DNA of 33,071 bases from Candidatus Neomarinimicrobiota bacterium (GTDB taxonomy: Bacteria > Fidelibacterota > UBA8477 > JABMPR01). The notes under the pieces were generated by a model, which made no database searches, was not told the DNA's origin, and saw only the letters and a list, made by a program, of their open reading frames with translations. Below are positions 13,497 through 33,071 of the stretch, piece by piece; within the stretch, counting starts at the first letter, position 1; the number at the start of each line of letters is the position of its first letter. The DNA lies in contig JAYEKW010000017.1 in the NCBI GenBank assembly GCA_034716895.1, positions 1-33,071 on the forward strand. Reading direction: 5' to 3'. The position numbers and the translations under genes are program-made.

Positions 13497-14287
13497 TATT
13501 TTGTATTGAGAAATTCTCGCCAGCGATCAGGATAATTAGTGATAACATTATCAATTTTAAGATCCCGTAGGCGAATCATTTCTTCAGGTTTGTCTACTTT
13601 TCCCCAGACATGGACTTCTTTACCAGCTTTATGAGCCTTCTCCACAAATTCGGCTGTGACAATTTTATTCTTAACACTCAGTATATCTACATTGGCTGCA
13701 AAGACGTCAACATCCTTATCCTTAGGCATCTTTGAGAAAAGATAGCCAACTTTGTAGGCTGGATATAACTCACGAACCAGATCAATAGCAGCCCAATTAA
13801 AGGAAGTTATGATACATTGATCAACAAACTTCTTTTCCTCAAGCACCTGCATAACGTGCTCTGTGAGACCATCCTGATGTCCATTCATTTTGATCTCAAC
13901 GTTCAGGAGCATGCGGCCATTGACGGAGTCAATAATATCAGAGAATAACGGGATGGGCTCCCCGCGATAATCCTCATGCTTCCAGGCACCGGCTTCAAAT
14001 CCGGCAATACTATCATAGGGTAAATCCCAGACATTGGCAATAACAGCAGAAGTGCGTTCATAGGTTTTATCATGGTACAGGATTAATACGTCGTCTGAAG
14101 TTTCCTGAACATCCAGTTCAGCATAATCAGCACCCTGTTCGATGGCCAGTAAATAGGCTGACATCGTATTTTCAGGAGCAACTCCTGATGATCCACGATG
14201 AGCCGTGATAAATATTTCGTGTTGACTACTACAGGCTGTTATGATCACGATTACAGTTACTAGCAGTATTCCTTTTAGGATTTTCAT
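13496..14287 (-). CDS. Glycerophosphodiester phosphodiesterase lipoprotein
   Basis: The frame runs back to 14365, but the start at 14287 follows GGAGG and gives a proper lipoprotein signal (lipobox ITAC, C19), 263 residues long. GDPD motifs are intact: AHRGSSGVAPENT (H30, R31, E39), ELDVQ (E57, D59) and LYHD (H72), with the TIM-barrel end WGKVDKPEEM and ITNYPD. The enzyme hydrolyses glycerophosphodiesters to glycerol-3-phosphate and an alcohol using a metal ion; here it would be anchored in the periplasm or on the surface. It is followed, with a one-base overlap, by a propeller lipoprotein and then a GlpT-type transporter that could take up its product. The 146 bases upstream hold no clear terminator, so it may be the continuation of the preceding operon. 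Confidence 0.9.
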   Translation of the reverse strand: MKILKGILLVTVIVIITACSSQHEIFITAHRGSSGVAPENTMSAYLLAIEQGADYAELDVQETSDDVLILYHDKTYERTSAVIANVWDLPYDSIAGFEAGAWKHEDYRGEPIPLFSDIIDSVNGRMLLNVEIKMNGHQDGLTEHVMQVLEEKKFVDQCIITSFNWAAIDLVRELYPAYKVGYLFSKMPKDKDVDVFAANVDILSVKNKIVTAEFVEKAHKAGKEVHVWGKVDKPEEMIRLRDLKIDNVITNYPDRWREFLNTK

Positions 14288-14433
14288 ATTTCCTCCATTA
14301 GTTTTTTTGAGCTCCGAGGTCGCCGCGCCCTGCTTGCGAAGACACAACTTGCAAATATTGAACAATAGTTGGCACTACCTGTTTCAAGACGTAAACATTA
14401 TTATTCAACAACTTGAGGTTTTTTAAATTCAAA

Positions 14434-15975: not shown

Positions 15976-18035
15976 TTCTGGAGTATGATTTGGGTTTGAG
16001 CTTGCTCAGTGCCAGTATTGACTTTACAAATGTAGTTACCATTCGGTACGATAAAGCCATCTGCATCATCTCCCACCCAATTCAGCCAATAGGTGCCAGC
16101 GGGGGCATAACGATCAACCAGGTATTTTATAATGTCCCCCTTATCATTATAAATACTGATATTAAATTCACCGTCCAGGGGAAGAGAGAGCTCAAAGATT
16201 ACAGGAACCCCTGGTGAGCCAGGTTCACTTTTTAAAGTCAGTTTCTTTGGAATTGATAAATCCTTATGACTATTACTAAACCTCTTATCAATGACAACCT
16301 GATCCATAACTCTTTGCTCTCTATCCCTAAAGCTGAGATCTAGGGTTGATCCATTTATATCAATCAAACAATAATGATAGCTAGTTCTTTGTTTTCTAAT
16401 ATCGGCCTGGTTGCGAACAGGGTGATCCTGAGGACCGCCACCACCACCGCTGATGATATGATAAATGCCATCTACATAACTTCGTTCATAGTCGTGAACA
16501 TGGCCGGAAAAATAAAAATCTACACCATACTTCTTGAAAAGAGGCCATATTTGGTCTTCATTTAATTTGTAGCGTACCTTAGACATTATCGGAATATGAG
16601 CTGTAACAAATAACCATTCGGCATTTTGGGCTGCAGGCGAACTCAGCTGCTTCTCAAGCCATTGGTGCTGAGAACTACCTGATGCTATATCAGGGAAAGC
16701 ACGATCGGTGTAGGCAGCTAGATTATTGTCAAAAAAGATGAAAAATGCGTTTCCATATTCAAAACTGTAGTATGTTTCATGCGGCTTGTCAGGAAAAGAA
16801 AAATACTTTGAAAAGTAGTGTGAGTAGGGTATTTGTTCCTGATCTGGGGATGTCGTGCCCAGGGTATTATTCTCATGATTGCCTACCGAAACATAAATAG
16901 GTGTCGAAGTCAGCAAGTCTTGTAATGGATCAAATAATTCAGTGTCCCAGTCTGGCCGGAGCCCGTTCATAACCACATCACCCGTATTGATTATAAAATC
17001 CGGAGTTTGTGCTGAAATTGCAGAGACAACTTCTGAATGGCGCAAGAAATTCGTACGATTATCACCATAGAGGGCAAAGCGAAAGGCTTGCTCCGTGGTT
17101 TTTGCAGTTCTAAATATATACCAATCACTCACCAATGAACCAGACGATACCCGGTAAGTATACTGTTGCCCCTGTTGCAAGTCAGGCAATACAACCTCGT
17201 GTATTTTGACCCTGTCATCCATCAATATGGTCTGAGTTTCTCCCCTGGATAGTCCATATTCAACTTGAGAATTCTGAGCTTGACTGCTGCCCCACATAAT
17301 TACTGCACTATCACCCAAAACATTCTGTAAATAAGGAACCCGATCAAAGTATAGTGACTTGTTTCTTGTGATCTTTAAGTTGTCATAAACGGTGATATCA
17401 TTGAAGAAGGAAGCATTGTTGTGATAGGTTGCAAAACCAACTTTTCCCCAACTAAGACTGGTATCTACAATTGAAAAATATTCCATTTGATCCAGGTAAA
17501 CCTTTATGGAATCCCCCCTAACATCAACACTAATATTGAAACGACATTCAGGCCACATCTCTTCGAGAAAGCCAATAGTCTCGAAAACGCCATCAACTCT
17601 TTTTTCAAGTCTAATTTTGGATATCTGAGATGAAAGGCTAAAGCGATAATAGTTTTCAGGATCCTGATAGCGGAATAAAACACCGATGTAATCGTCATCA
17701 GTCGATACCACATTTGCCGAAAGTGTATAGTCGGTCCAGTCAGCTTGTCCAGCCACCGCTTGAGTACCCAATTTGCCTTTGCCAATATTGCTCTGCTGAA
17801 TCAAATAGCCTGCTTCAACATACCAGTTTGATATTTCATGATCGGGATAGTCGTGGATTGTCCAACCTACCATATCACCATCTTCAAAATCATCACGCCA
17901 GATAACAGCCGAATTATTCGGTCCTAAACCTTGTTCAGGAGGAGAGCTTCCAACACCAACACAAGCTGCGAGAATAAACAGTAGGAAGCCAAGGAAACCC
18001 ACCACTTTGATTTGTTTCAGACGCATGGGGCTCAC
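15972..18035 (-). CDS. Lipoprotein calcineurin-like (purple acid phosphatase-type) phosphoesterase
   Basis: The 687-residue protein is a predicted lipoprotein (lipobox ILAAC, C25). Order: LamG-like beta-sandwich (about 47-218), Fn3-like PAP N-domain (about 232-310), and a metallophosphoesterase domain with GDNR (324-327), GDVV (352-355), GNHE (385-388), AHIP (479-482) and GHVH (511-514), so all five metal-binding blocks remain. The C-terminal domain has the beta-fold of T9SS tags but lacks the YPNPFN motif and ends QIILQN. It is a tandem paralogue of the next gene. It starts at GTG 18035 overlapping the upstream TGA (GTGA); an ATG three codons later (18026) is an alternative. Likely a phosphomonoesterase or diesterase acting at the periplasm or cell surface. 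Confidence 0.88.
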   Translation of the reverse strand: MSPMRLKQIKVVGFLGFLLFILAACVGVGSSPPEQGLGPNNSAVIWRDDFEDGDMVGWTIHDYPDHEISNWYVEAGYLIQQSNIGKGKLGTQAVAGQADWTDYTLSANVVSTDDDYIGVLFRYQDPENYYRFSLSSQISKIRLEKRVDGVFETIGFLEEMWPECRFNISVDVRGDSIKVYLDQMEYFSIVDTSLSWGKVGFATYHNNASFFNDITVYDNLKITRNKSLYFDRVPYLQNVLGDSAVIMWGSSQAQNSQVEYGLSRGETQTILMDDRVKIHEVVLPDLQQGQQYTYRVSSGSLVSDWYIFRTAKTTEQAFRFALYGDNRTNFLRHSEVVSAISAQTPDFIINTGDVVMNGLRPDWDTELFDPLQDLLTSTPIYVSVGNHENNTLGTTSPDQEQIPYSHYFSKYFSFPDKPHETYYSFEYGNAFFIFFDNNLAAYTDRAFPDIASGSSQHQWLEKQLSSPAAQNAEWLFVTAHIPIMSKVRYKLNEDQIWPLFKKYGVDFYFSGHVHDYERSYVDGIYHIISGGGGGPQDHPVRNQADIRKQRTSYHYCLIDINGSTLDLSFRDREQRVMDQVVIDKRFSNSHKDLSIPKKLTLKSEPGSPGVPVIFELSLPLDGEFNISIYNDKGDIIKYLVDRYAPAGTYWLNWVGDDADGFIVPNGNYICKVNTGTEQAQTQIILQN

Positions 18036-20041
18036 TTCAGATAACTGAGTTTGATCTGACTGCTACCAGACTCAGTTACAATTTGACAAGTATATACGCC
18101 GCTGGGAACCAATCTGCCGTTAGCATCATCACCATCCCAATGCAGCCAATAGGTGCCTGCTCGGGCAAATCCTTCTGCCAGGGTTGTCACCAGACGACCT
18201 GAGATATCATAGATTTTAAGGCTGTATTCTCCCTCAAGCGGCAAGGTGAATTGAATCATGGTAGAGGCATTAAACGGGTTGGGATAATTGTGCAATGTGA
18301 GTTGCTGTGGGTGGATCGGATCCTTGTCAGAAATGCTATCAGGATCTTTACTAATGACAAATTGATCCAATAAATTCTGGTCTTTATCCTTGATCTGAAA
18401 GCCCAGTACTGAATCATTCACTTCGATCATGCAATAATGATAGTTGCTGACCTGTTCGGTAATTTCAGGGATATCACGAACTCGATGGGACAATGGTCCA
18501 CCCGCTCCGCCACTGATTATGTGATGGAGACCTTCTGAAAACCCGCGTTCATAGTCATGAATATGACCAGCAAAGTAAATATCGACTTCATAGTCAAGGA
18601 GCAGCGGCAGGATGAAATCACGGTTCTGGTCGTAATTATTGTTGGTGCTGACTGAATAGATCGGGACATGCCCCAGGACAAACAGCCATTCTGCATTCTG
18701 AGCTTCAGCAGAGCCCAACTGTTCCTCAAGCCAGGAATATTGATCGCTTTCTTCATGGATGGCCGGGTAATTGGAGCTGGGGTAGGCGGCGATATTATTA
18801 TCTATAAATATGAAAAAGGTATTCCCGTACTCAAAAGAATAGTAATGTTCATGGTCTGGATCAGGGAAAGCAAAATATTCGCTGAAATAGGATGATTCTT
18901 TTTCATGATTTCCGATTGATACATAGATAGGCATATTTTTAATGAGGTCAGCCATTGGGTTGAAAAATTCAGTGTCCCAGTCTGCTCGGAGTCCGTACTG
19001 AACCACATCACCTACATTTATTAGAAAATCAGGGGTCTCTTCTGAGATTGCAGCTGAGATCTCGCCGTGACGCAGAAAGTTAGTCCGGTTATCTCCCAAT
19101 AAAGCAAAGCTGAAGGGGTCCTGGGGAAGTCTGGCAGAGATAAATTGAGCCCAATCGCTCACCTGGTTATTTGAGAACACCCGATAGACATATTCTTGAC
19201 CTCGGAGGAGATCCCTCAGGACTAATTCATGGTTCTTTTTGGGGGTGGTTGATCCGACCAATTCAGTTTCGGTGGTGGACAGTCCGTACTCTACAATAGA
19301 ATTCGTATACTGATTGGTGCGCCACATGACTGTGGCACTATCTCCCAGCACATTCTGCAGATAGGGACCTCTATTTATAACCAGGCTTTGATCGGGAGGC
19401 TCAACTTCCAGTCGATCATAGACAGAAATATCATCAAAGAAGGAACCATTGTTATTAATGGTTGCAAAACCAACGCGTCCTGACCCAAAGCTTGCATCGA
19501 TCAATTCAAAATACTGTACCTGATTCAGGTAAACTGAAATAGTATCATTCTGCACATCGATGGTGATATTGTAAGTACAAAGCGGCCACATCATGGTGAT
19601 CTGCTGCAGGGTTTGCAGGATGCCATCCTGGCGTTTTTCCAGGCGGATTCTGCCAGCTTGAGAAGAAAGCGTCATGCGATAGTAATTTCCGGCATTCTGG
19701 TAGCGAAACAACACACCAATGTAATCATCGTCGGTGGAGACCACATTGGCTGAAACGGTATAATTATCCCAGGTTGCCAATCCAGCCACTGCGTGTGTTC
19801 CCAATCCGCTTGATCCAATGTTACTGGTCTGGATCAAGTATCCGCCCTCAACAAACCAGTTGGATGATCCGGTTGCATCATCATAGAAAAGCCATCCATC
19901 GCTATCCCCATCTTCGAAATCATCGTTCCAGAGCAGGGTTTCCTGGCTAAAGACTGAGCTCCCCAAAGCAATCAGAAGTATAAAGAGCGGATAGAGGATT
20001 CGAAATGGGATAAAACGCTGCATCACTGGTATTCGTTTCAT
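18032..20041 (-). CDS. T9SS-exported calcineurin-like (purple acid phosphatase-type) phosphoesterase
   Basis: The 669-residue protein has a cleavable Sec signal (to about residue 32, no lipobox cysteine). It has a LamG-like domain (38-210), a Fn3-like domain (225-305) and a metallophosphoesterase core with GDNR (316-319), GDVV (344-347), GNHE (377-380), GHVP (457-460) and GHIH (492-495). A canonical sorting domain follows with YPNPFN (586-591), the YDISGR turn and the end KLSYLK. The family uses a dinuclear metal centre to hydrolyse phosphate esters; the substrate is unknown. It would be released or surface-attached through T9SS. It overlaps the upstream gene by ATGA and the downstream paralogue by GTGA, so it is in the middle of a coupled operon. 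Confidence 0.9.
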   Translation of the reverse strand: MKRIPVMQRFIPFRILYPLFILLIALGSSVFSQETLLWNDDFEDGDSDGWLFYDDATGSSNWFVEGGYLIQTSNIGSSGLGTHAVAGLATWDNYTVSANVVSTDDDYIGVLFRYQNAGNYYRMTLSSQAGRIRLEKRQDGILQTLQQITMMWPLCTYNITIDVQNDTISVYLNQVQYFELIDASFGSGRVGFATINNNGSFFDDISVYDRLEVEPPDQSLVINRGPYLQNVLGDSATVMWRTNQYTNSIVEYGLSTTETELVGSTTPKKNHELVLRDLLRGQEYVYRVFSNNQVSDWAQFISARLPQDPFSFALLGDNRTNFLRHGEISAAISEETPDFLINVGDVVQYGLRADWDTEFFNPMADLIKNMPIYVSIGNHEKESSYFSEYFAFPDPDHEHYYSFEYGNTFFIFIDNNIAAYPSSNYPAIHEESDQYSWLEEQLGSAEAQNAEWLFVLGHVPIYSVSTNNNYDQNRDFILPLLLDYEVDIYFAGHIHDYERGFSEGLHHIISGGAGGPLSHRVRDIPEITEQVSNYHYCMIEVNDSVLGFQIKDKDQNLLDQFVISKDPDSISDKDPIHPQQLTLHNYPNPFNASTMIQFTLPLEGEYSLKIYDISGRLVTTLAEGFARAGTYWLHWDGDDANGRLVPSGVYTCQIVTESGSSQIKLSYLK

Positions 20042-22008
20042 TTTAAATAGACAATCTTTCTAGAAAAGTTTGAGTGATCACTAAACCTGAAATTCAGCAG
20101 ATACACACCGCTGAAATTTACTTGAGGTGACCAGGCCAGCTGATGCTGACCCTGGCTGTGATGACTCTCTTTAATAATAGTTTCGATCTGACGTCCTTGA
20201 AGATCGAACACATCCAATGAAACCAATTGGTCTGATCCAAGAGTGTAATTAATGATGGTTGAATCGTTAAAGGGGTTGGGATATACGGAAAGCGTGAAGG
20301 CCTCTGGCAAGGCGTTTTTCTCAGAATCGTTCAAACCTGTACTGCTTGTATCAACATCACTAAAGAGAACATCAGGGCTGATTTCGAAAACAAAGGGGTA
20401 AAACTGGTTCCAGGGACTTGAGTCTCGCAATTGATATGCTCTTGCGCTTGATTCAGAGACATTGATCATATTATTGGCATCGTCAAACGTAATATCCTCT
20501 CCGCCTGAAGGAATTTCGAAAATTCGATCAGCTGTAATAAGTGTCGCAGGCTGGAGTGCTCCTTTCCGGTAACGATAAAGCAGGCTGTTATTAGTTCCAC
20601 CCCAGCTGGTGCATACAAATAAATATTTCTCACCACCATATTCTGTCCAGGCAGCCCCCTGATTGGTGTTAGGAATTTCATAGCGAACAGGCGTAGCAGC
20701 GATATTGATATTGCCGTTATCATAGACCGGATAGCCAAACATGAAAGCTCTGCCTGATGGGCGAGCGCCCCAACTTGCAACCCAGAGTGTATCATCAAAA
20801 TAATTCAGGTTTGAGGAGTATATGTTATAGGTATTTATCGGTTCCAGATCAAAATATTTTCCAGCAGTTGAGTCATAAGCCGGGACTTCACATTGATATA
20901 CAGAACCCTCGCTGCCCACATAAAGGTTACTTGCATAAAATGCCATGGCTGGTAAATGTCCGTAGGTGGGTCCTGCGGTAAATTGAAAACAGCGCCGAAC
21001 CTGGTAGCCTTTGTTAGGATCCATTTCAACAATTATGGAATTCTTTCCACCAATCGTACCGTTGATATCCTTATGGTACATGGCCAGGTACACCATATCA
21101 TTTTCTGTTGGATGCTGCTTATCCTCAAAGGTTGAAGCCATGCCCTGAGGAATGTAAAAATCATTTGAATAAGGTACAAAGACTGTGCGTTCCACTTCAG
21201 TTGGGTTAACCGTCACGACTTTTTCACTTCCCCGCTCCAGATAAAGAGGCATCCCAAAGTACTCACTTCCATCAAAGGGGGGACTGCTCTGGAGGTATGT
21301 CTCAGAACGCAGATAGTTATTCAAACTAATTCCCAGTATCTGCCCCTTGAATGATGGACCAAAGGTGCGTGGATCGCTGGAGCGACCAACCCTAACCTGT
21401 GACCTAATCAACGTAAATGCGGCCGGAACTGTCATCAGCTCACTTTGTTGAAAAACGGAAGTACCATCGACATACAGTTCAAACTCAATATAGCCATTTA
21501 TAATACGATTGATCCAGTAGAGATAGCTCCATGAAGCTGTATCTACTGGAACTGTGGCTGTCATGGTAAAAAGACTGTCCGAAAGATAACGGTGAATGTT
21601 TAGAAAACCGTCCTGGAGAAAAGTAGTGATGAAATGAACTCCGGCACTGTCCCCCCAACTAATGATGGTGCCATCCAGAGAATCAGGTTTGATCCACATC
21701 TCACCAGTTATAGTATGGTTTCCAAAAAAACTAATAATAGCTTCATTATCAGAAACCATGGCGGAGGAATCATTCAAAAAATGGGCACTCCGAGGTAAAC
21801 TCAAGCCCCATCCATCAGGTCCACGGGCAATTACTTCTGCTGGCTCGAGGTAATCATTGAACTCGAGACCACTCCAAGTTACCTGACTGTGGAAGGGAGA
21901 TTCAACGGGGAGTGATGCATCGAATCTGAACAGAGCATGATATTGAGCATACACGACGGTGCTACTCAATAAAATCAGGAATAAGCCTGAAATAATTTTG
22001 TGTCGCAT
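20038..22008 (-). CDS. T9SS-exported LamG / beta-propeller protein
   Basis: About 656 residues. Three in-frame Mets are available; the third (22008) has AGAGG six bases upstream while the first (22026) has none, so 22008 is chosen. It has a signal peptide (MRHKIISGLFLILL to VVYA) and a LamG/concanavalin-like domain (about 75-235; GEMWIKPDSLDG, VRVGRSSDPRTFGPSFKGQI). A region with propeller-like repeats follows (about 280-555; NSIIVEMDPNKGY, LPAMAFYASNLYVG, EDITFDDANNMINVSE), and a T9SS tail with YPNPFN ending KIVYLK. No catalytic motif is evident; it probably binds a polymer or phosphorylated ligand. First of four genes linked by 4-base overlaps, directly behind a strong hairpin (22036-22077). 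Confidence 0.8.
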   Translation of the reverse strand: MRHKIISGLFLILLSSTVVYAQYHALFRFDASLPVESPFHSQVTWSGLEFNDYLEPAEVIARGPDGWGLSLPRSAHFLNDSSAMVSDNEAIISFFGNHTITGEMWIKPDSLDGTIISWGDSAGVHFITTFLQDGFLNIHRYLSDSLFTMTATVPVDTASWSYLYWINRIINGYIEFELYVDGTSVFQQSELMTVPAAFTLIRSQVRVGRSSDPRTFGPSFKGQILGISLNNYLRSETYLQSSPPFDGSEYFGMPLYLERGSEKVVTVNPTEVERTVFVPYSNDFYIPQGMASTFEDKQHPTENDMVYLAMYHKDINGTIGGKNSIIVEMDPNKGYQVRRCFQFTAGPTYGHLPAMAFYASNLYVGSEGSVYQCEVPAYDSTAGKYFDLEPINTYNIYSSNLNYFDDTLWVASWGARPSGRAFMFGYPVYDNGNINIAATPVRYEIPNTNQGAAWTEYGGEKYLFVCTSWGGTNNSLLYRYRKGALQPATLITADRIFEIPSGGEDITFDDANNMINVSESSARAYQLRDSSPWNQFYPFVFEISPDVLFSDVDTSSTGLNDSEKNALPEAFTLSVYPNPFNDSTIINYTLGSDQLVSLDVFDLQGRQIETIIKESHHSQGQHQLAWSPQVNFSGVYLLNFRFSDHSNFSRKIVYLK

Positions 22009-22035
22009 TAGCATCCTCTGTTTCATTATTTTTAA

Positions 22036-22077
22036 AAGTGTGGTGAATGATTATAGAACCAATCATTCACCACACTT
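22036..22077 (-). terminator. Perfect 17-bp hairpin between lamin-tail gene and phosphoesterase operon
   Basis: Arms 22036-22052 and 22061-22077 are perfectly complementary (17 bp) around an 8-base loop. On the minus strand the stem runs into TTTTAAAAATA, giving a terminator-like tail. It lies 32 bases after the stop of the upstream gene and only 27 bases before the start of the next, leaving no room for another promoter. It is therefore a partial terminator, a processing site or a regulated attenuator. Confidence 0.8.
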
Positions 22078-22109
22078 GTTTTCTAAGCTGATTATTAACC
22101 CGGCTCAGA

Positions 22110-24719
22110 TTACTTCATCAAGATCATCTTCTTTGTTTCAGAGAAAGCAATTGAGTTAAGTGAATAGAGGTACATGCCTGAAGGAGCCATTGCGCCACTT
22201 CCAGTCAAGCCGTTCCAAGTCACTTCGTAATTTCCCGGCTTAAATCTCTGGTTTGCCAACTCAGCAACAACCTGTCCTTTGATATTGTAAATCGTCAAAG
22301 ACACATAGGTATGAGTTGGCACATCAAACCTAATAGTTGTGGAGGGGTTAAAGGGATTGGGGTAACAGTTCTCAAGCTTAAAGCTATTGGGCTGTACACC
22401 ACCCAGATCCACAGCTAAGAGGTCACAGATATTCATGTCACCATCACTGGATGAAGCCGGTGAATTTTCCAGCTCTGAAATTGTGAGATGTTCAACAAAA
22501 GCATCGATTATATCAGTGTTGCCATCTGGATATCTGGTGATGGAAGTATTGTGGCCACCATGTGCAGCAGATTCGACTCTCATGTTAAAATAAATATCCT
22601 GAGTGCTGGCGGACTGAGGTGCTCCCCGACCATAGTGACTGCCATAGTTAACATACATGGCATAGGATGTATCGGGCGAAATCAAAACCACACATTCACC
22701 AGCGTTGGGCAAACCATTTCCGATATCGTTCATGTGTGAACTATCAGACAGGAAGGCATGGGTCAGCATGGGATCAACATTCCAACCATCTGCAGGACCA
22801 ATTGAGAGATCACCACCACCAAAAACAGTTACAAACTCTCCACATCCCAGGGTATAGCCATCAGGAAATGTGAAACTGAATTGTTCATCATCTCCCAGCA
22901 TCCAGCCACTCATATCCACGGTTTCACTACTGACATTCAGGAGCTCGATATATTCATCCTGCTCAGCATGGCGGATCCAGTCCCGATTGGCATCACCATA
23001 GATCGGATCTGTGGAGGGATCAGCATTGATCTCGTTGATAATGATGGTCGGTGGCAATTGAAAAGCTGTCATAAAGGTGGCCGTAATCGTCTTCGATTTT
23101 GTCATGGCAATGTAAACCGGATTGATCTGAGCTACTTCGTCACCCTCCCAGCCGGAAAAGATAAAACCTTCAGCTGGTATTGCAGTCAGAGTCACAAAAT
23201 CCCCATAACCAAATTCGGTCTGGGTGGCACTGACTGAATCAAGCTCCACTGTACCAGAGCCAGCCGGGGTAGTCAGCAATGTCAGAGTAAAAGCTAACCG
23301 GTCAGCACCTTCCAGAGTCATTCCTGGAGAATAATTGCTTGTAGACACGGTCAGGTGTTCAACAAAAGGATCATCCAGCTCATAATTAGCATCTGGGGAA
23401 CGCGTCAGGGAATTATCATTAGCCCCATTTGCAGCAGTGCTCCGGGCAAACTCCCATACTGTTTCACCCACAACAGGATCTGTACCAGCACTAGTACCCC
23501 AGGCAACATAGGCATCATCCAGACCATTGGGCGACAGCAGTATAGCTGCATCACCGGCTTCATCAAAACCATCTCCAAGGCTACCACCAGCAGTAAATAC
23601 TCGGGTGAGCATGGGATCGCTATTATAGCCAGCAAAGCCACTCACATCGCCACCGCCAAAGATGGTCACAAACTCGAAGGAGTTGAGAATGTAACCATCG
23701 GGGAAGGTGAAATTCTGTAGTCCGGCATCGCCGGCAGTCCAACCTGTCAGGTCTACAGGATTTGAACTTAGATTAAGAAGCTCGATAAATTCATCTTGCA
23801 ACGCATCAGCTGTACCATCGCCATTGGCGTCACCATTGGCAACGTCTGCAGCTGGATCAGCCAAGACTTCGTTGATCATGATTTTAGGATCACGTTGCAC
23901 GATCACCCATTCAGGCATAGCTGGAACATCACCTTCATACCCGGCGATATCAGAGCCTCCTAAAATTCCATTAAAGCCAAAACCGGCTTCATCTGTTGCT
24001 ATCAATCCTTCACCATCATCAAAATGCCAAAGTGCGACAGTATAGCCATCAACTTCGAAAGGCTCATCGGCTGGAACAAAATTGGTAGTATAGCGAGCAG
24101 TGGCTGAGATTCGTACTTCATCAATTTGTCCCCGCCAGGTTTCATAGCGATCAAAATGATGATCCTGGGCTCCTGATCCGATAGTAATGATCTGATCACC
24201 GTTACTCACGGGTAAACAAATCTCACCCTCTGAATTTGGCTCCATATCCAGCTCCTGGACACCGTTAATAAACAAGCGCATGGAGTCGGCTACATCCCAG
24301 ACATAGGCCACATGAGTCCAGCGCGGTAACCAGATATTGGATTCAGTACGTAAGCTCTGGGTGGGATAATTGACTGCATCACCGCTCTGGACAAAGCAAA
24401 CCATATCACCTTGACCACGAATCCAATGCAAACCCATATCACCGACATAATTCCCTGAGATATTTTTGCAGAAAAGGTAGGTGTAGTCAGGCTCATGCGT
24501 ATCAGCCCGAAAGACTGAATCAGGCTTAAACCACATCTCTACTGTACCGGCATCCAGCTGGCCTGGCCATAATAGCGGGGTATCAGGAACAATCACACGA
24601 TCATGTTCCCACCAGGAAAAATGCAAAGCACCATTCCACTGGGCTTGTATGGTTATTGGAAAAACCAGAATTATCGCACTTATTGCGATTAGAATCATAC
24701 GTGTGGTTGATTTCATCAT
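22110..24719 (-). CDS. T9SS-exported LamG / double lamin-tail surface protein
   Basis: The 869-residue secreted protein has a signal peptide (to about residue 26), LamG-like domain (28-265; TVEMWFKPDSVF, GQIDEVRIS) and lamin-tail domain 1 (279-470). An InlB B-repeat-like module follows (478-550; TTPAGSGTVEL, IPAEGFIFSGWEGDE), then lamin-tail domain 2 (557-755) and a sorting domain with YPNPFN (786-791) ending KMILMK. No hydrolase module is present, so an adhesive or binding role is likely. From memory of the family, bacterial lamin-tail domains are often fused to secreted hydrolases including calcineurin-like phosphoesterases; here such enzymes follow in the same direction. AAGGAGG precedes two adjacent ATGs (24719 and 24716), the second slightly better spaced. 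The 123-base gap to the PorV-family gene shows no clear terminator. Confidence 0.87.
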   Translation of the reverse strand: MMKSTTRMILIAISAIILVFPITIQAQWNGALHFSWWEHDRVIVPDTPLLWPGQLDAGTVEMWFKPDSVFRADTHEPDYTYLFCKNISGNYVGDMGLHWIRGQGDMVCFVQSGDAVNYPTQSLRTESNIWLPRWTHVAYVWDVADSMRLFINGVQELDMEPNSEGEICLPVSNGDQIITIGSGAQDHHFDRYETWRGQIDEVRISATARYTTNFVPADEPFEVDGYTVALWHFDDGEGLIATDEAGFGFNGILGGSDIAGYEGDVPAMPEWVIVQRDPKIMINEVLADPAADVANGDANGDGTADALQDEFIELLNLSSNPVDLTGWTAGDAGLQNFTFPDGYILNSFEFVTIFGGGDVSGFAGYNSDPMLTRVFTAGGSLGDGFDEAGDAAILLSPNGLDDAYVAWGTSAGTDPVVGETVWEFARSTAANGANDNSLTRSPDANYELDDPFVEHLTVSTSNYSPGMTLEGADRLAFTLTLLTTPAGSGTVELDSVSATQTEFGYGDFVTLTAIPAEGFIFSGWEGDEVAQINPVYIAMTKSKTITATFMTAFQLPPTIIINEINADPSTDPIYGDANRDWIRHAEQDEYIELLNVSSETVDMSGWMLGDDEQFSFTFPDGYTLGCGEFVTVFGGGDLSIGPADGWNVDPMLTHAFLSDSSHMNDIGNGLPNAGECVVLISPDTSYAMYVNYGSHYGRGAPQSASTQDIYFNMRVESAAHGGHNTSITRYPDGNTDIIDAFVEHLTISELENSPASSSDGDMNICDLLAVDLGGVQPNSFKLENCYPNPFNPSTTIRFDVPTHTYVSLTIYNIKGQVVAELANQRFKPGNYEVTWNGLTGSGAMAPSGMYLYSLNSIAFSETKKMILMK

Positions 24720-24842: not shown

Positions 24843-25916
24843 CTAGAAAAGTAAATCTATTGAAAAGCGCTGTACGTTACCCAAAAGGCCCCATTCAGAC
24901 CAGGCATAATTGAAACCGACTCGCATTGAGTTGCCTAATTTGGGAGTGATTCCAAAGCCTACTGATAAACCATTCTCACTACTGTCATCGAACAAAGAAT
25001 TATAGCCAACCCTCGCTACTAGTAACTGCCTGAAATCCCATTCCAAACCAAGATCCAATGATTCTACGCTATTGCTGGGGTGATTCAGGTCTGTTGCGAA
25101 GGTTAAATTATGACCATTAAGCATTGAAAGGGAATAAGCTAATCCAAACCGAAAAAGCAGGGGCAGGGGAAATTGATCCGTCTCCAGCATAATATTCAAA
25201 CGATCATTGGAGTAATGCGCTTCATCAGCATCGTAAGCTCGTCGAAGATCTCGACCACTCATCTGCATTTCAGAACCATAGTTGGCAATGGTAGTACCGA
25301 TCTGCAGACCTTCGATCCTGGTTTTATATAATACGCCAACATCTATTGCCATGGCATGGGCTGATTCATGCCAAAGCTGTTGTAATATGTATTTGGTTGT
25401 GATACCGAAGGAGAATTTATCAGTGATGGTGGCTGCCAGTGTTGCAGCCAGTGCCATATCAGAGGCAGCATAATATTCGCCTGTTCCATCTGGCAGCTGG
25501 ATGGTTCGAACCGGCTGTTTATCGGTATAATTCAAAACATTGATACTTAAACCAGCGGAAAATCTTCCAGAAAAAGGAATCACTGCCCCAAAATAATCAT
25601 GACTGGTACTAGCCAACCATTGGGTATGATTCACTGACAGGGAGATATTATTCAACTGGGTAATGCCAGCCGGATTCCAGTACAGAGCCGTTACATCATT
25701 GGCGATGGCGGTAAAAGCACCACCCATTGCCTGGGAATAGGCTCCCACTCCGATCTCCAGAAAAGCCGCCGCCGATGTTCCTACATTTGAAACCGCCTCA
25801 GTATAGGTCGGGTCTGCATAGGTTTCCTCACCCGTCTGGGAAAAAAGGGATACACTGAATACGCTCAATAACAGAATTAAGGCGCTTTTTAAATGATTCT
25901 TTTTCACTACCAACAT
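24843..25916 (-). CDS. PorV/PorQ-family outer-membrane protein (T9SS-associated)
   Basis: The 357-residue protein has a signal peptide (to about residue 27) and the family signature FLEIGVGAYSQAMGGAFTA followed by YWNPAGI (about residues 52-85). Amphipathic strands follow and it ends in an aromatic residue (IDLLF). PorV is the outer-membrane shuttle that carries T9SS cargo from the translocon to the attachment complex; PorQ-like members hold related roles. Family members are often encoded, as here, behind a TonB receptor and a large exported protein. A GGAG site seven bases before the ATG supports this start. No other T9SS machinery gene is in the window. Confidence 0.85.
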   Translation of the reverse strand: MLVVKKNHLKSALILLLSVFSVSLFSQTGEETYADPTYTEAVSNVGTSAAAFLEIGVGAYSQAMGGAFTAIANDVTALYWNPAGITQLNNISLSVNHTQWLASTSHDYFGAVIPFSGRFSAGLSINVLNYTDKQPVRTIQLPDGTGEYYAASDMALAATLAATITDKFSFGITTKYILQQLWHESAHAMAIDVGVLYKTRIEGLQIGTTIANYGSEMQMSGRDLRRAYDADEAHYSNDRLNIMLETDQFPLPLLFRFGLAYSLSMLNGHNLTFATDLNHPSNSVESLDLGLEWDFRQLLVARVGYNSLFDDSSENGLSVGFGITPKLGNSMRVGFNYAWSEWGLLGNVQRFSIDLLF

Positions 25917-25948
25917 GTATTGCTCCAGTACGAAATATTCGTTCTGAT

Positions 25949-28900
25949 CTATTTGATCAATGCAAATTTGCCCACTTTACTTCCAATTCCCTCGGCCTCG
26001 ACCTGGAAGATGTACATTCCAAAAGACACGGAAAGACCATCTCTGGAGATCAGGTCCCAACTTTCAGTCCCTTGAGTCATGGTACTTGAGTGCTCCAGGG
26101 TTCTCACCAGTTTACCACTCATGGTAAAAATTCGAATCGTACACTCCTGGGGTAGATTAACAAAATCGATCCGTCGTTCACCGCGACCACTGGCATAGAA
26201 AAGAGGTTTCTCCCAACTGGCTGTAACCACATAAGGATCAGGGACAACATAGATGTTATCCATATCGTCCGTAGCCTGCGGGGTAGACATTTTCGAGCCC
26301 GTTGTTGAGAACCTCAGCGTGTCATCAGAATTAAACGGTTTGGTAACAGTCAGAGAGAACACATCACCAGGTTGGGGAATAATAACATCCGTCATCGATG
26401 TGTCATCTCGGAAATAGAATTCCCAGGCTGTGTTAAACAAAAAGCCTTGGGCATTGAATACGATTACAATCCGGTCACCGCCATTGAGTGTACTGTCCTT
26501 GTGAATTGCTTCAGAGAATTCAAAATCCCACTGTTCATTCCGGGTTGTATTCCATACTTGAAAATTTACCGGTGTTCTTAGAAAAATAAGGGGATTATAG
26601 GAAGTGTCTGTGTTGGCTGTGTAAACCCTGATCTCAAAGTCCTCTGGTAGAGGTATGGATTTTGGCGACCACAACAACTCTGTTTCAATTTCTATATTCG
26701 AATTACCTACCAACCATTTGGTCTCGGCAACTTCTGCTGAATCATTGAAAAGATCAAACTGCATTCCTTTAATGATCTCACTACTTAACACAAATTCATC
26801 ATAAGGTGTTACATGGTGAATTAAAACGTCATCAGTCAAATCATGGATCGAAACACTGGCTGTATAGCGACCAAGGGTTGTGTCAGTAAAGGTGATCTCA
26901 TATTCATGGTCATCTGCAATACTGTCCGGGACCATAACGCTTACATCATAAGCTCCCGTTGCCAGGCCAATATGTTCAACATCACTGGTCTTACCGGGTA
27001 TGTAGCCAGCACTGGGAGCATTGGGAACAACGACTGCACAATTCCGATCTACAAATTTTATGTCTCCCCAGGAATCGGTCTGAATGATCTTGGTGCATTC
27101 AACTGGAGCGATGGAAGCGAGAAGATCAGCTTCAACAATACCTCTATCATAAAAGTCTTCATCATAGCCTTTGTCAAAAGAGCAAACAGCATAGTAATAA
27201 GTACGGCCATTCTGAACATCCAGATCCTCATAGAAATACTCAAGATCCGTGTTATCCCCTATATAAAAATGAGCACCTGTTCCAGTAATTTCCACGGGAT
27301 GCGGTCCTGCCAGATCATTGACCAGATCAAACTGGGCTAGAGGCTTCCAGAAAATGGGACTTCCATAGGCGTCGGTAATGGTCTTGATCTCGTTAAAGGA
27401 TGGATCAGTTGACCGATAAATCAGGTACCCTTCAAAGTCTTTTCCATAGATCGGATCGATGGAACGTTCAGCACTATGATCCCACTTTAAAATCACTTTC
27501 GCATCACCAGCCACAGCTGTCAACACGGGTTTCAAGGGTGGTTTTGCAAAATTGTAATCTGCATCATAGATCCGCTGCATGGTGCGTTTGTTTCGGAAAA
27601 TATCCTGTTCATCCGTCCCAAAAAGATTTGCAATGGCAAACTTACGCGTTTCGTCTTTGGGCAAACTGAAGTACCCGGAACCATACATAAAGGCCAGGTT
27701 TGCCGGATCTACATAAGTGAAAAGTCCGGGGGTCATCTGATTAAAGGTTCGGTCATCATATTTCAGGCTCTGGGGTTCCAACAGAATTACGCTGGTAAGA
27801 CCGATCTGATCTGATTCATCGTTGTCCTGTTTACCAAAATTTGGTTCACCCGGATCTGGTACACCATTGGCCTCTGATTGATCTGAATCCGGACCGGGAT
27901 AGTCCTGGTCGTAAGGCCCGATACCATCATTTCCCACATCATCCAGAATGGCTTCGCCCATATCCCAGATCCCATTGCCATTAAAATCTTCGTAGATGCG
28001 CCAATCGCCGTCTTCGTCACCACTCCAGTGATTTTTGGGATCACCATAATTTCCAATGGGACCAAAAATATATTCACCGCGATCATTGTCCTGCCGTTCG
28101 TCAATAAGACCATTTTCATCATCATCTATACCATTCAAGGGGTCGCCGGGACTCTCTAAAAAGGCATAGCCAAAATAGCCCAGACCGGGGATACCACGGT
28201 TGTCGATCCCGTCAAAATCCCAGCAATAGGTGATGTCATCAAATTGATCAAATCTGGCATAATCCGGGTTATCACTGGTCCCCCCCACCATGGCATCGAC
28301 GTACATGCCAAAAACGACTGTCTCTAAATTCTTGTCACTCACATTGGCAATATCATAGCGAACAATAAGGATATCCTCGGCTTCTACTGCAGCCCATTCA
28401 TAACCGCGCACCTTCACCTCAAAACCAAGACCTCGTCGACCATTGGGATATCCAGCGGAATCGACTGAGCTACCGATAAAAGGATAGTACTCAAATTCAT
28501 CATTATCCCGGTCATCCATGACATAATAACTTTCTTGATCTGCTCGGGTATAAGCACCGAATTCACCATTCCAGAGACCATCACGGGAGCCTTGATCTCC
28601 AGGATAATCATAGGGCCAGTTCAGGGGCCAGGTTTCCGCTTTATGGCTCATGGCCGGATATTCATCACTATTTTCAGCCCCCTTATTGAAGTAGCCATCC
28701 AATGGTTGCCAGTTCCAGAGATGGGTGCCATCCGGTGAAATATCGTGACTAACCGGGTGGGAATAGCTTTCCGAACAAATTTTGACCGGGTCTCCATTTA
28801 TATCCTCAACTTCAGCAGCGGCGATCATGATAAATTCAAAACCATAGACCATGCCTGAGCCTTTAGGCCATTCCATGCGAGGGTTCTCATAACGGTCACC

Positions 28901-29050
28901 CAGGTTCCCGTAATTTGAGTATCGGGTATAAACCAAATTTCCATCATGGATTCCGGTTCGACGATCTTCTGCTCCACCATACAGTAGGCTGACAGATAAA
29001 ACCTGCATCAAAATTATCCAAAAGGTCAGGGGGCGTAATTGACGTAACAT
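25949..29050 (-). CDS. Large exported fibronectin-type protein with T9SS-like tail
   Basis: The 1033-residue secreted protein has a signal peptide (to about residue 25) and an N-terminal half rich in aromatic and acidic residues. An Asp/Asn-rich segment (about 307-412) includes EF-hand- or thrombospondin-3-like loops such as GIDDDENGLIDE and DFNGNGIWDMGE that probably bind calcium. A fibronectin type III-like domain lies at about 504-635 (KVILKWDHSAERS, FEGYLIYRST). The C-terminal domain has the variant motif VVPDPYVV in place of YPNPFN, then MSGKLVRTLEH, and ends KFALIK. The function is unknown; the position between a TonB receptor and a PorV-family protein suggests a surface partner of the receptor. 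It starts 16 bases after the receptor stop with AGAGG upstream. Confidence 0.8.
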   Translation of the reverse strand: MLRQLRPLTFWIILMQVLSVSLLYGGAEDRRTGIHDGNLVYTRYSNYGNLGDRYENPRMEWPKGSGMVYGFEFIMIAAAEVEDINGDPVKICSESYSHPVSHDISPDGTHLWNWQPLDGYFNKGAENSDEYPAMSHKAETWPLNWPYDYPGDQGSRDGLWNGEFGAYTRADQESYYVMDDRDNDEFEYYPFIGSSVDSAGYPNGRRGLGFEVKVRGYEWAAVEAEDILIVRYDIANVSDKNLETVVFGMYVDAMVGGTSDNPDYARFDQFDDITYCWDFDGIDNRGIPGLGYFGYAFLESPGDPLNGIDDDENGLIDERQDNDRGEYIFGPIGNYGDPKNHWSGDEDGDWRIYEDFNGNGIWDMGEAILDDVGNDGIGPYDQDYPGPDSDQSEANGVPDPGEPNFGKQDNDESDQIGLTSVILLEPQSLKYDDRTFNQMTPGLFTYVDPANLAFMYGSGYFSLPKDETRKFAIANLFGTDEQDIFRNKRTMQRIYDADYNFAKPPLKPVLTAVAGDAKVILKWDHSAERSIDPIYGKDFEGYLIYRSTDPSFNEIKTITDAYGSPIFWKPLAQFDLVNDLAGPHPVEITGTGAHFYIGDNTDLEYFYEDLDVQNGRTYYYAVCSFDKGYDEDFYDRGIVEADLLASIAPVECTKIIQTDSWGDIKFVDRNCAVVVPNAPSAGYIPGKTSDVEHIGLATGAYDVSVMVPDSIADDHEYEITFTDTTLGRYTASVSIHDLTDDVLIHHVTPYDEFVLSSEIIKGMQFDLFNDSAEVAETKWLVGNSNIEIETELLWSPKSIPLPEDFEIRVYTANTDTSYNPLIFLRTPVNFQVWNTTRNEQWDFEFSEAIHKDSTLNGGDRIVIVFNAQGFLFNTAWEFYFRDDTSMTDVIIPQPGDVFSLTVTKPFNSDDTLRFSTTGSKMSTPQATDDMDNIYVVPDPYVVTASWEKPLFYASGRGERRIDFVNLPQECTIRIFTMSGKLVRTLEHSSTMTQGTESWDLISRDGLSVSFGMYIFQVEAEGIGSKVGKFALIK

Positions 29051-29066
29051 TTAGTTTCCTCTTAGC

Positions 29067-31775
29067 CTAAAACTTGACTTGAATACCTACTAGTACCCGG
29101 CGGGGCTCCGAATAGAAATCGGGCCTAAGATCCACTTCAGCGATGGTGAAATTAGGATTATGGGTTAACACTTCAGTGGCCGGGATAGTTCGATAAGGAG
29201 CCTCGGAATTCCCGGTACTTGAATACACATAGCGTTGATTCAATTGATCCGTAAGATTAAAGACCTTGCAGAAAAGCTTCACCTTAAAAGCACTGAGCTT
29301 AAGGGTCTTATGGATATTGAGATCAAAATTATGAGTCGTCGGCTTACGATCACTATTCTCAAATTGAGTATCAAGAGCAGAACCAGGACTGGATGGTGTA
29401 TAGGGTTGACCGGTAGCAAAACGACCGATGATTCCCATATTTATCCCTGAAGGTGTCTTCATGGAGAACGAAGCGTTCAAAGTGTGCGTTTGATCCCAAT
29501 CCAGGGGCAGAACCTGTTTTTCTGTTTCCTTGTTAGCGTTATAGGCATTGAATATAGCATTGGGATCAGAAGCATTTCCCTTGGCTAGCTGATAGGTATA
29601 ATCCACGCTAGCTGAGAAAAAGTTGGAGTATAGTTTATTCAATGTGAAGGTTACACCCCTGACATTGCCATAATCACGATTGATGTAGCGAGCATAGACT
29701 TTCTTGTCAATGGTACTGATGATCTCCTGGCTTAACAGGTTGCTGATATCCTTGTAATACATGGTCAGTTCAAGACCATACACATCTGTGAGCTGCTGCT
29801 GTAGACCAATTTCGTAACCGATAGTCTTCTCCGGCTTCAGATTCACATTGCCCATTTTTGTTTGGAGTCCACCCAGCTTAATTTCATATTCGTAATTATT
29901 GTAGATGGCATTAAAGCGGGGCAACTGGAAGAAGTGACCATAGGAGACGTGAATAACGCCACGATCGGAGATAGGATACGCCAAACCAAAGCGGGGACTC
30001 AACTGCTGCCGAGTCATACCGGGCTCCAGCTCAGAATCCAACCTGATCCCATTATCCGTGTCTGTTTCAGCTCTCAGATTAACGGGGATTAGCGCACTGG
30101 GGTCCCAGTAGTCAAATCTCAGACCCATATTGACGATTATATCTTCAGATTCAATGACACTCTGGAAATAGCCAGCTCCCTCAATCGGTTTAACTTCATA
30201 ATGGTTAAACCCGGATGTATTCTGGTCTGGTAAGCGTAGGATGGGTTCCTCGTATAGGGAGCCTTCCGCCACCGTCGTTAAGCTGTAGTAGTCCAGGTGA
30301 TGTCTCTTGATCTCTCCTCCGAACTGTATCTGTACGGTATGATTGATTTGAGAGATAAAATCCCCCTTGACAGACAGGGCTGACCGGGTGATGTCGTAGC
30401 GACCATTCTGGGTACCCCCAAAACTAAAACTTTGATCGGCGAAGGGACTTGATCGATATCTTTGATCAAGGGGATCTTCAAATAAATAAGCCTGTGTGTT
30501 TTTTGAATATTTGGAAAAATTTATGGTGTAAAAGGTGCTGTTGGACAGGACATGGTTAACGCTGAAAATATGATTGTAACTATCATCGTACCAGGTTCTG
30601 ACGCCATCCGGGGAAAAACGTCTGTAATCACTGTATGATCTACCTGTTCCAGTGGTGTAGAAAAGCGAATATCTCAATTTAAGCGAGGGTAAGACCTTGG
30701 TGGTGATCTTGGTGTAGACGGAGACCTTGGACCTGCCATCAATCGGGACAAAAGTGCCATCTCCTGTTTGAAGAGAATCGGGAACTGCAATGCCATAGGA
30801 TCGCTCATCCTGGGTTTGGGTCTTTTGGGCTTCGTTGATATAGTCCTGGATCGGTACAGTATCTTCGATCCTGACATTATTGCGGCCATAAAGCCAGCCA
30901 TCTGTTTCCCGGTAACGAACAGAACTGTAAAATGAGCCGTCTGGGAGAAAGAACAGGGGACCTTGAAAGCTGCTAGAAATATTTTTCTCATTTAAGCCGA
31001 CTGTGTTGAGATTCCAAAATATTTTGTCTGACGCAGAAACATGATCTCCTGTTGTAACTGAGATATTTCCTGAAAATTTCCGGGCACCCTCTTTGGTTAC
31101 AACATTGATGATACCTGACTGGGCTTGTCCGTATTCAGCATTGAATGTCCCGCTGATAACCTGGAGCTCCTGGACCCAGCTATTTTCCAGGCCAATGGAA
31201 CTGCCACCATTGTATTGATCCGTTACGGGAACTCCGTCGATAAGGTAGGCTATTTCGCCGCCTCGTCCACCTCGGATATGAAAGCCTCCGCCGGCATCCT
31301 GAACGACACCCGCCTGTAACTGGATCAGATCACTAACTTCCTGGACAGGCATGGAGGCAATTTTTTCGGCTGAAACGTAGGCTGTTGTATTTGTACGACT
31401 TTTCTCAACGACCACACGTTTGCTAACAACGATGACTTCTTCTCCCTCCAGCGTTTCCGGGATTATTTCAATATTAATGTTGGTAGTTAGGTCGACATTA
31501 ACAAAAACATCAGTTATACTGGTTTTTTGATAGCCGATATATGAGCATACCAGGGTATAGGTGCCTGGACGAACACCAATAATAAAATAGTCACCTTTAA
31601 GGTCGGTCATTGATCCCTGACCGATATCAGGGAGGTAAACATCTGCTCCGATTATCGCTTCACCGGTTTCCTGATCCGTAATTCGCCCCATGATTTTTCC
31701 GGTCGTCCCTGCAATAGCAAAAGCACTTAGGGTTATCAGAAGGAAAATGTGGTAAAATATCAGTTTGCTACGCAT
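29067..31775 (-). CDS. TonB-dependent receptor (Oar-like) with carboxypeptidase-regulatory N-domain
   Basis: The 902-residue outer-membrane receptor has a signal peptide (to about residue 22) and a CarboxypepD_reg-like domain (about 26-110; KIMGRITDQETGEAIIGADV, DYFIIGVRPGTYTL). A plug domain follows (about 130-245; GFHIRGGRGGEIAYLIDGVP, VISGTFNAEYGQAQSGIINVV), then a large barrel ending in an aromatic residue (VGIQVKF). It would take up an unknown large ligand, such as a glycan or peptide, with TonB energy. First gene of a three-gene operon. A divergent SorC/DeoR sugar-sensing regulator across a 415-bp gap suggests sugar-phosphate control, which is inference. AAGGA lies seven bases before the ATG. 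Confidence 0.92.
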   Translation of the reverse strand: MRSKLIFYHIFLLITLSAFAIAGTTGKIMGRITDQETGEAIIGADVYLPDIGQGSMTDLKGDYFIIGVRPGTYTLVCSYIGYQKTSITDVFVNVDLTTNINIEIIPETLEGEEVIVVSKRVVVEKSRTNTTAYVSAEKIASMPVQEVSDLIQLQAGVVQDAGGGFHIRGGRGGEIAYLIDGVPVTDQYNGGSSIGLENSWVQELQVISGTFNAEYGQAQSGIINVVTKEGARKFSGNISVTTGDHVSASDKIFWNLNTVGLNEKNISSSFQGPLFFLPDGSFYSSVRYRETDGWLYGRNNVRIEDTVPIQDYINEAQKTQTQDERSYGIAVPDSLQTGDGTFVPIDGRSKVSVYTKITTKVLPSLKLRYSLFYTTGTGRSYSDYRRFSPDGVRTWYDDSYNHIFSVNHVLSNSTFYTINFSKYSKNTQAYLFEDPLDQRYRSSPFADQSFSFGGTQNGRYDITRSALSVKGDFISQINHTVQIQFGGEIKRHHLDYYSLTTVAEGSLYEEPILRLPDQNTSGFNHYEVKPIEGAGYFQSVIESEDIIVNMGLRFDYWDPSALIPVNLRAETDTDNGIRLDSELEPGMTRQQLSPRFGLAYPISDRGVIHVSYGHFFQLPRFNAIYNNYEYEIKLGGLQTKMGNVNLKPEKTIGYEIGLQQQLTDVYGLELTMYYKDISNLLSQEIISTIDKKVYARYINRDYGNVRGVTFTLNKLYSNFFSASVDYTYQLAKGNASDPNAIFNAYNANKETEKQVLPLDWDQTHTLNASFSMKTPSGINMGIIGRFATGQPYTPSSPGSALDTQFENSDRKPTTHNFDLNIHKTLKLSAFKVKLFCKVFNLTDQLNQRYVYSSTGNSEAPYRTIPATEVLTHNPNFTIAEVDLRPDFYSEPRRVLVGIQVKF

Positions 31776-32190: not shown

Positions 32191-33071
32191 ATGGCAAACA
32201 AGCAACCCACAAAAGAAGAATTACTCATCCTGGTAGCCTCTCTTTATTACGTAGAAAATCTTGGACAAGCAAAGGTAGCCCAGTTGGCTGGCATTTCTCA
32301 GGCCAATGTCTCACGCCTGCTTAGTGAAGCGCGCAAACGAAATATTGTTCAGATCAGCGTAAAACCATTTTCACCCAGAGATCATGATCTCGAGAAACAA
32401 TTGAAGAAGTCATTTAACCTGAATCATGTCATTGTGATCAATTCCAGTGCGCGTCGGAACCTTGTGCAACAGCGACAGGCCATCGGATATTTTTCCGCGC
32501 CTGATATAAGCAGCCTGATCAAATCCAGACATACTGTCTGTGTTGCCGCAGGTCGCCATATCCAAAGCTTGGTTGAAAATATGCAGCCAGGAGCCCCAGC
32601 CACCAATGTGATATTCGTCCAGGCAATGGGCCACATCAGTAATAATGTTCAGGGTGATGATGCCTTCGAGATTACACGTAAATTAGCAAAAAAATGGAAT
32701 GGAACTTCCTGCAGCATCCAGGCACCTGCCATCACAGCAGACATTGCAACCTTCAATGCTTTCACATCCCATAATCAGATTAGATCTGTACTAAACTATA
32801 TGGACAAGGTAGATCTCGCCATTGTCGGGGTGGGAATTAGCTCTGACTCCGTATTTTTAGATCGGGCGTTTATTGCTCCCTCTGACATGAAAGCTTTAAC
32901 TGCAAAAGGGGTTGTTGGTGAGATTTGTGGGCATTTTTATGATAACCAGGGTACTGAAGTCAACACCTCCTACAAGGATTTAGTAATCGGAATCTCCTTG
33001 CAACAACTACGCGATACATCAGATGTACTGGCTGTTGTCAGCAATGCGAACCGGGCTCCTGCTGTACAAGC
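32191..33071 (+). CDS. SorC/DeoR-type sugar-binding transcriptional regulator (3' end outside window)
   Basis: An open frame from the ATG at 32191 runs off the right end without a stop (293 codons visible). AGGAGG (32176-32181) lies nine bases upstream. The product starts MANKQPTKEELLILVASLYY. It has an N-terminal helix-turn-helix (about 25-50; QAKVAQLAGISQANVSRLLSEARKR is read here in parts: GQAKVAQLAG, then ISQANVSRLLSEA). A sugar-phosphate-sensing domain of the SorC/DeoR C-terminal type follows, with DLAIVGVGISSD near 219-230. Such regulators bind phosphorylated sugars and usually control adjacent carbohydrate genes. Divergent transcription from the TonB receptor operon makes that operon the obvious candidate target. 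Confidence 0.88.
   Translation, partial: MANKQPTKEELLILVASLYYVENLGQAKVAQLAGISQANVSRLLSEARKRNIVQISVKPFSPRDHDLEKQLKKSFNLNHVIVINSSARRNLVQQRQAIGYFSAPDISSLIKSRHTVCVAAGRHIQSLVENMQPGAPATNVIFVQAMGHISNNVQGDDAFEITRKLAKKWNGTSCSIQAPAITADIATFNAFTSHNQIRSVLNYMDKVDLAIVGVGISSDSVFLDRAFIAPSDMKALTAKGVVGEICGHFYDNQGTEVNTSYKDLVIGISLQQLRDTSDVLAVVSNANRAPAVQ

Follow-up and report, generated by a model that had tools for sequence, protein, structure and literature searches.

The T-M-P cassette and its conservation

Neomarinimicrobiota (SAR406/Fidelibacterota) are widespread marine bacteria that are almost uncultured. We analysed a stretch of 33,071 nucleotides (the window; contig JAYEKW010000017.1 of assembly GCA_034716895.1) from a Neomarinimicrobiota metagenome-assembled genome (MAG), here called G000 (3.45 Mb, 258 contigs, 95% complete); the genomes on which this work rests are MAGs. 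Our subject is three genes of the window, encoding a TonB-dependent receptor (T), a 1033-residue surface protein (M) and an outer-membrane barrel of the PorV/PorQ family (P). Their open reading frames (ORFs) all lie on the minus strand, and the gaps agree with those of the initial annotation, 16 bases between T and M and 32 bases between M and P (Table 1).

Table 1. Features of the window (aa, amino acids; CTD, carboxy-terminal domain; T9SS, type IX secretion system; LTD, lamin-tail domain).
Feature	Coordinates	Strand	Basis or remark
T: TonB-dependent receptor, 902 aa, signal peptide	29067..31775	-	CarbopepD_reg_2 + Plug + TonB_dep_Rec_b-barrel (Pfam)
M: secreted surface protein, 1033 aa; N-terminal domain, Asp/Asn-rich segment, Fn3-like domain, cassette-class T9SS CTD	25949..29050	-	
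Asp/Asn-rich segment of M with EF-hand-like loops, about residues 300-440	27731..28153	-	composition and loop count
Cassette-class CTD of M, about residues 925-1033, VVPDPYV...FVNLPQECTIRIFTMSGKLVRTLEH...GKFALIK	25949..26278	-	116.8 bits with cassette model (leave-one-out), 30.4 with G000 type A model
P: PorV/PorQ-family outer-membrane barrel, 357 aa	24843..25916	-	NCBIfam PorV_fam NF033709, 181.5 bits (cut-off 90)
Secreted protein with LamG, two LTDs and type A CTD; next operon gene	22110..24719	-	kept next to trio in L137, L139, L140
LamG-domain protein, type A CTD	20038..22026	-	
Secreted purple-acid-phosphatase-like metallophosphoesterase, type A CTD	18032..20041	-	
Second purple-acid-phosphatase-like metallophosphoesterase, weak tail	15972..18035	-	
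Putative lipoprotein, distantly like peptidyl-prolyl isomerase/SurA	14434..15975	-	weak
Glycerophosphodiester phosphodiesterase (GDPD), putative lipoprotein	13496..14365	-	PF03009, 153.9 bits
Putative lipoprotein, no family	12603..13496	-	
GlpT-like glycerol-3-phosphate transporter of the major facilitator superfamily	11148..12500	-	TIGR00712, 422.8 bits, below equivalog cut-off of 632
Secreted GDSL esterase, LTD and type A CTD	8977..10944	-	
Divergent SorC/DeoR-type regulator, sugar-binding domain, runs off window	32191..33069	+	PF04198, 174.5 bits; same place in L137, L138

Reading of ORFs around matches to M, to the PorV family and to the TonB plug revealed ten intact T-M-P units in G000, identical in gene order and orientation (the window, C166, C39, two in tandem on C155, C157, C64, C209, C245 and C186; on C157 and C186 one small gene or ORF sits between M and P). 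Contig ends truncate three more cassettes (C133, C80, C93), and a further two or three copies are rearranged (C7, C41, C226). The unit thus recurs about ten to fifteen times in G000. A system unique to one locus is ruled out by the ten intact copies. About 45 relatives were sampled as stretches of at most 20 kb around matches to M, the stretches being chosen on M only and not on T or P; the nearest named relatives of M are in Candidatus Neomarinimicrobiota MAGs (83% identity, L031), followed by Calditrichota (35-37%). The flanks could be counted for 65 of the 82 M genes found, those with neighbours on both sides, which come from Neomarinimicrobiota and three Calditrichota loci. T lies immediately upstream of M in 65/65, and P lies at most two genes downstream in 64/65 (immediately downstream in 52); in the lone exception, on C41, T and M are adjacent and P lies upstream of T on the same strand. 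Intergenic gaps are mostly -4 to about +35 bases, and the order is still near-perfect across the two phyla where M has diverged down to 23-28% identity. M was matched in 60/60 Neomarinimicrobiota genomes (median 16 matches, fragments included) and in 40/40 Calditrichota genomes.

The initial annotation had proposed searching for M together with PorV-family genes, and had held that M occurring widely without receptor or PorV partners would speak against a module; in both phyla the opposite of such isolation was found. Its suggestion of a distinct uptake or surface-assembly system is supported as regards SusCD-like uptake, but what it described is a many-copy cassette of at least two phyla and not something special to this locus. 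We interpret the trio as one copy of a tripartite SusCD-like importer, whose surface subunit is exported by the T9SS and held by its own PorQ/PorV-like barrel, not by a lipid; this is the reading towards which we lean, with moderate confidence.

Variants and other receptors were also noted. In L161, L163, L164, L166 and L168-L170, from several genomes of the genus, one cassette directly follows another (T-M-P-T-M; stretches that extend far enough show the second P), and T and M are about 1110-1190 aa and about 1590 aa long, respectively. In cassettes of the C41/C157 type, additional genes separate M from P or lie next to them (L114 4267-5250, L117 8915-10249, L114 1922-3208); two of these genes encode TIG-domain proteins. 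The window itself holds a second TonB-dependent receptor (2733-4949), nearer to heme/B12-type models and with no M or P beside it.

The surface protein, its sorting tail and the barrel

M of the window matches no Pfam family, which accords with the annotated lack of a known enzyme motif, and a PDB sequence search with M alone as query gave no useful match. The Asp/Asn-rich calcium-loop segment of the initial annotation is present: D and N make up 27% of about residues 300-440 versus 16% of the whole protein, and the segment includes the EF-hand-like loops DDDENGLIDE and DFNGNGIWDMGE. The mean number of such loops over 58 M proteins is 1.66, versus 0.14 in shuffled sequences, and 10 proteins have none, so that the loops are real but not universal. 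Since the aligned segment is also missing from the Calditrichota loci L033 and L034, calcium loops were rejected as a defining trait of what is a variable region. The fibronectin label rests on conserved W523/Y542/Y618/Y620-type motifs and on a single weak match, by profile, to an Fn3-like protein of solved structure (E=0.048), but on no Pfam match. In the M protein of C166 (L110, 10968-14072) the mature part opens with CIRCHS, which contains a CxxCH motif like that of c-type cytochromes; in this it differs from the other M starts listed.

The tail of M was compared with two CTD models, one built from cassette CTDs and one from the other T9SS tails of G000, each tail being scored leave-one-out. 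The 14 cassette tails scored 64-122 with the cassette model versus 15-41 with the type A model, and the 23 other tails of G000 scored 6-35 versus 39-113. Over all loci, 75 cassette-class tails occurred only in M proteins or pieces of M, all 103 type A tails belonged to other proteins, and none was intermediate; the tails of M form a T9SS sorting-signal class apart from type A. The curated type A models TIGR04183 and PF18962 do not match M of the window, and TIGR04183 matches 1/32 M proteins. An ordinary type A CTD is therefore ruled out for M by model scores, by the locus-wide split of classes and by the curated models, and M matched no type B CTD model either. The only named match to the tail of the window's M is to the PorZ model NF052228 (19.6 bits, tail only, under the cut-off of 260). 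This model matches 10/32 M proteins, versus 1/32 for type A, and the top PDB profile match is likewise the PorZ tail (5m11). The T9SS-like tail of the initial annotation is thus real, but it is not an ordinary one. The translocon SprA and the sortase PorU of the T9SS are present in G000, and M is probably exported by this route.

The modelled fold of P is PorV-like. The AlphaFold2 model of P (predicted local distance difference test score, pLDDT, of 65; the signal and the loops are poorly modelled) shows 14 long strands, and the top fold matches are PorV-type chains of Flavobacterium johnsoniae T9SS complexes (8gl6_F, 6h3i_F), followed by FadL-type channels. P falls under the cut-offs of the PorV equivalog NF033710 (59.5 versus 250 bits) and the PorQ equivalog NF033711 (81.8 versus 220 bits), and matches no PorP/SprF model. 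The PorQ model outscores the PorV model in 13/15 cassette barrels, none of which reaches either cut-off. A PorV candidate (203 bits, cut-off 250) is encoded on C241 of G000, and C19 carries a PorQ-like gene (112 bits), so that the cassette barrels are additional to these; as P is below the cut-off and C241 holds a better candidate, P was rejected as the canonical PorV of the cell.

In the initial annotation P was M's own PorV-like shuttle. PorQ, however, is closer to P than PorV, the general shuttle, is, and surface anchoring is therefore at least as likely as shuttling. The basis for P as an anchor is that PorZ and PorU of Porphyromonas gingivalis keep their CTDs (PMC11285876) and are anchored at the surface via the barrels PorV and PorQ (PMC8545088). 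Alternatively, P could be only a cargo-specific shuttle that draws M from SprA and passes it on, after which PorU would cleave the CTD and attach M to lipopolysaccharide as for type A cargo. PorV itself acts as a shuttle (PMC5562754), the structure that P matches best is that of a T9SS complex to which a cargo CTD is bound, and F. johnsoniae type B tails have been shown experimentally to have cognate barrels encoded beside the cargo, so that dedicated cargo/barrel pairs do exist (PMC12618676). However, the scores nearer to PorQ in 13/15 barrels, a closest named CTD that is the uncleaved one of PorZ, and a separate canonical-like PorV available for general shuttling all argue against it, and we consider a shuttle-only role unlikely.

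Two further barrels came to light elsewhere in G000. Close to sprA (L124 347-2949, C217), a divergent PorV/PorQ-family barrel lies next to a protein of 537 aa whose tail is PorZ-like, possibly the Neomarinimicrobiota's own PorQ/PorZ pair. New β-barrel assembly machinery (BAM) complexes were described in Bacteroidota; a BamG-like PorV relative outside that phylum (112 bits, cut-off 250) is present in L113 (3422-4600, C241).

T, M and P are inherited together as a unit. Across the ten modules of G000, pairwise distances of T correlate with those of P (r=0.67, reached in 2/2000 shuffles) and of the M body (r=0.66), and across 58 modules the coefficients rise to 0.86 (0/2000 shuffles) and 0.91, respectively. 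When T is controlled for, the correlation of M body with P vanishes; when M body is controlled for, that of T with P stays, at 0.57. Linkage alone could yield such correlations, and they therefore show inheritance as a unit, not contact. The congruent trees would also fit an ancestral operon kept by repeated duplication of the whole cassette, in which the proteins would form no complex together, M serving as an adhesin or coat protein of the surface and P as a channel like FadL; the fold of P is matched well by FadL/TodX channels too, and M is without Pfam-assigned domain content. We regard this as very improbable in view of the near-perfect order over two phyla despite the divergence of M, and of a CTD class strictly tied to M.

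Operon context and the scarcity of SusD

The SusCD-type uptake logic invoked in the initial annotation, with no SusD lipoprotein, is supported both by the genomes and by the neighbours of the cassettes. SusD PF07980, the one SusD family searched genome-wide, is absent from G000 and from all 23 genomes of its order. Elsewhere it stands at 0-3 per genome, with 13 hits in the 60 Neomarinimicrobiota genomes altogether and 0-3 in each of the 40 Calditrichota genomes. No SusD family was matched by M, and T remains below the SusC/RagA model TIGR04056 (66.4 bits versus a cut-off of 368.25). By Pfam, the 73 genes directly after cassettes, counts for which there is no matched control, include 14 with T9SS tails, 9 ABC permeases, 5 solute-binding proteins and 7 of glycoside hydrolase (GH) family GH16, as well as GH3, GH9, GH53, GH94, glucoamylase and nucleoside-hydrolase families. 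On C209, a PfkB kinase, ABC permeases and ADP-ribosylglycohydrolases are encoded after the cassette.

These neighbours also bear on the direction of transport. PopC secretion requires a TonB-dependent transporter (PMC6434023), and T directly precedes M in 65/65, as might be expected if T had an Oar-like export role. Yet for exporting CTD proteins the genome has SprA and PorU, many genes of type A cargo lack an adjacent TonB receptor, and sugar importers and GHs follow the cassettes; an export role for T is decidedly unlikely, and import, as in the SusCD-like reading, is preferred.

The same-strand run that begins with the trio extends to position 8977 (Table 1). In L137 and its contig neighbour L156 (48-91% identity) both the order of the genes and the regulator are conserved; in a genome of another family (L139, L140) they are conserved in part. 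The contents of the run suggest that the operon serves glycerophosphodiesters or other phosphate esters. Between the genes at 22110-24719 and 20038-22026, in the gap 22027-22109, a perfect 17-bp inverted repeat stands just before the start of the LamG gene. Hairpins also occur in this gap in L137 (about 9120-9150) and L140 (about 9250-9290), but with quite different sequences, so that the stem and not the sequence is kept; perhaps the hairpin separates expression of the T-M-P-LTD block from that of the phosphatase block. The window gave no Rfam match, and a promoter scan was not above shuffles.

A proposed importer and its closest relatives

In the mechanism that we propose, T would be the energised import channel. 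M would be exported by Sec and then by the T9SS, stay outside the cell and capture substrate over T in the manner of SusD. P would be the dedicated outer-membrane barrel of M, taking its CTD from the SprA translocon and probably retaining it uncleaved as a surface anchor, like PorQ for PorZ. The window copy would head a phosphate-ester operon, in which surface phosphatases and the esterase would trim substrates, T and M would capture and import the trimmed phosphate esters, GDPD would free glycerol-3-phosphate, and the GlpT-like carrier would bring it in, all under the divergent sugar-sensing regulator. On a wider scale, two phyla of the Fibrobacterota-Chlorobiota-Bacteroidota (FCB) group may have built a general replacement for SusCD from T9SS parts: each importer would have its own T9SS-exported substrate-binding protein, a further sorting-signal class would be read by a dedicated PorQ/PorV-family barrel as permanent anchor, and protein-barrel anchoring would replace lipid anchoring. 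We put this forward more tentatively, as a possibility that falls just short of being probable.

Several points weigh against the importer reading. M has no recognisable binding domain, its AlphaFold2 model (made from six sequences) is unusable (pLDDT 38), and binding of M to P and a complex of M with T are what we infer. The cassette CTD class may reflect only common descent, since M proteins are homologous throughout and this alone could make their tails alike. The CTD of PorZ itself barely discriminates between the models (33 bits with the cassette model versus 28 with type A), which leaves the PorZ analogy suggestive only. The tree of P is without resolution and does not set the cassette barrels apart from canonical PorV/PorQ, and CTD and P distances within G000 correlate weakly (r=0.23, reached in 330/2000 shuffles). 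Copy numbers of PorV-family and M genes correlate at Spearman 0.75 (M counts being minimum values), but the partial correlation given genome size is a modest 0.31, so that genome size accounts for part of this relation. The missing control for the post-cassette counts belongs here too.

If the importer reading is right, the cassette offers an answer to how Neomarinimicrobiota acquire large organic molecules while having little SusD or none, for which the literature searched describes none. It would also be a usable marker, each copy probably flagging one substrate operon, and it suggests a further cargo/barrel pairing for the T9SS. No description of the cassette in Neomarinimicrobiota or Calditrichota was found in the literature searched, a scope that takes in few subscription journals, and neither the T9SS or Por secretion nor SusC/SusD is mentioned in the Caldithrix abyssi genome paper.

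Known systems resemble the cassette in part. In Myxococcus xanthus, the TonB-dependent transporter Oar is functionally tied to the secreted protein PopC, but in export and not import, and with no PorV-family partner in that report (PMC6434023). SusC/SusD (RagA/RagB), the glycan importer of Bacteroidota, shares a TonB-dependent channel with N-terminal carboxypeptidase-regulatory-like domain, an adjacent gene for a surface partner, many paralogues per genome, and a place at the head of operons with hydrolases and regulators (here importers too, as far as uncontrolled neighbour counts can tell). It differs in that the partner in the cassette is a large T9SS-tailed protein, neither SusD nor a lipoprotein, that the cassette nearly always has a third gene, which encodes a PorV/PorQ-family barrel, and that T scores far below the SusC model (66 versus 368 bits). 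Type B CTD cargo with PorP/SprF-like shuttles, in F. johnsoniae and P. gingivalis, likewise combines a separate CTD class with its own barrel directly downstream and several pairs per genome (PMC12618676, PMC9143113), whereas the cassette barrel is of the PorV/PorQ and not the PorP/SprF family, M fits no type B model, and the unit includes a TonB receptor. The cassette CTD and barrel most resemble PorQ-PorZ and PorV-PorU, in which a surface protein with retained CTD is held by a PorV/PorQ-family barrel (PMC8545088, PMC11285876). Unlike these, M and P fall under the PorZ, PorQ and PorV equivalog cut-offs, and the cassettes number at least 10 pairs per genome and are tied to TonB receptors and catabolic genes.

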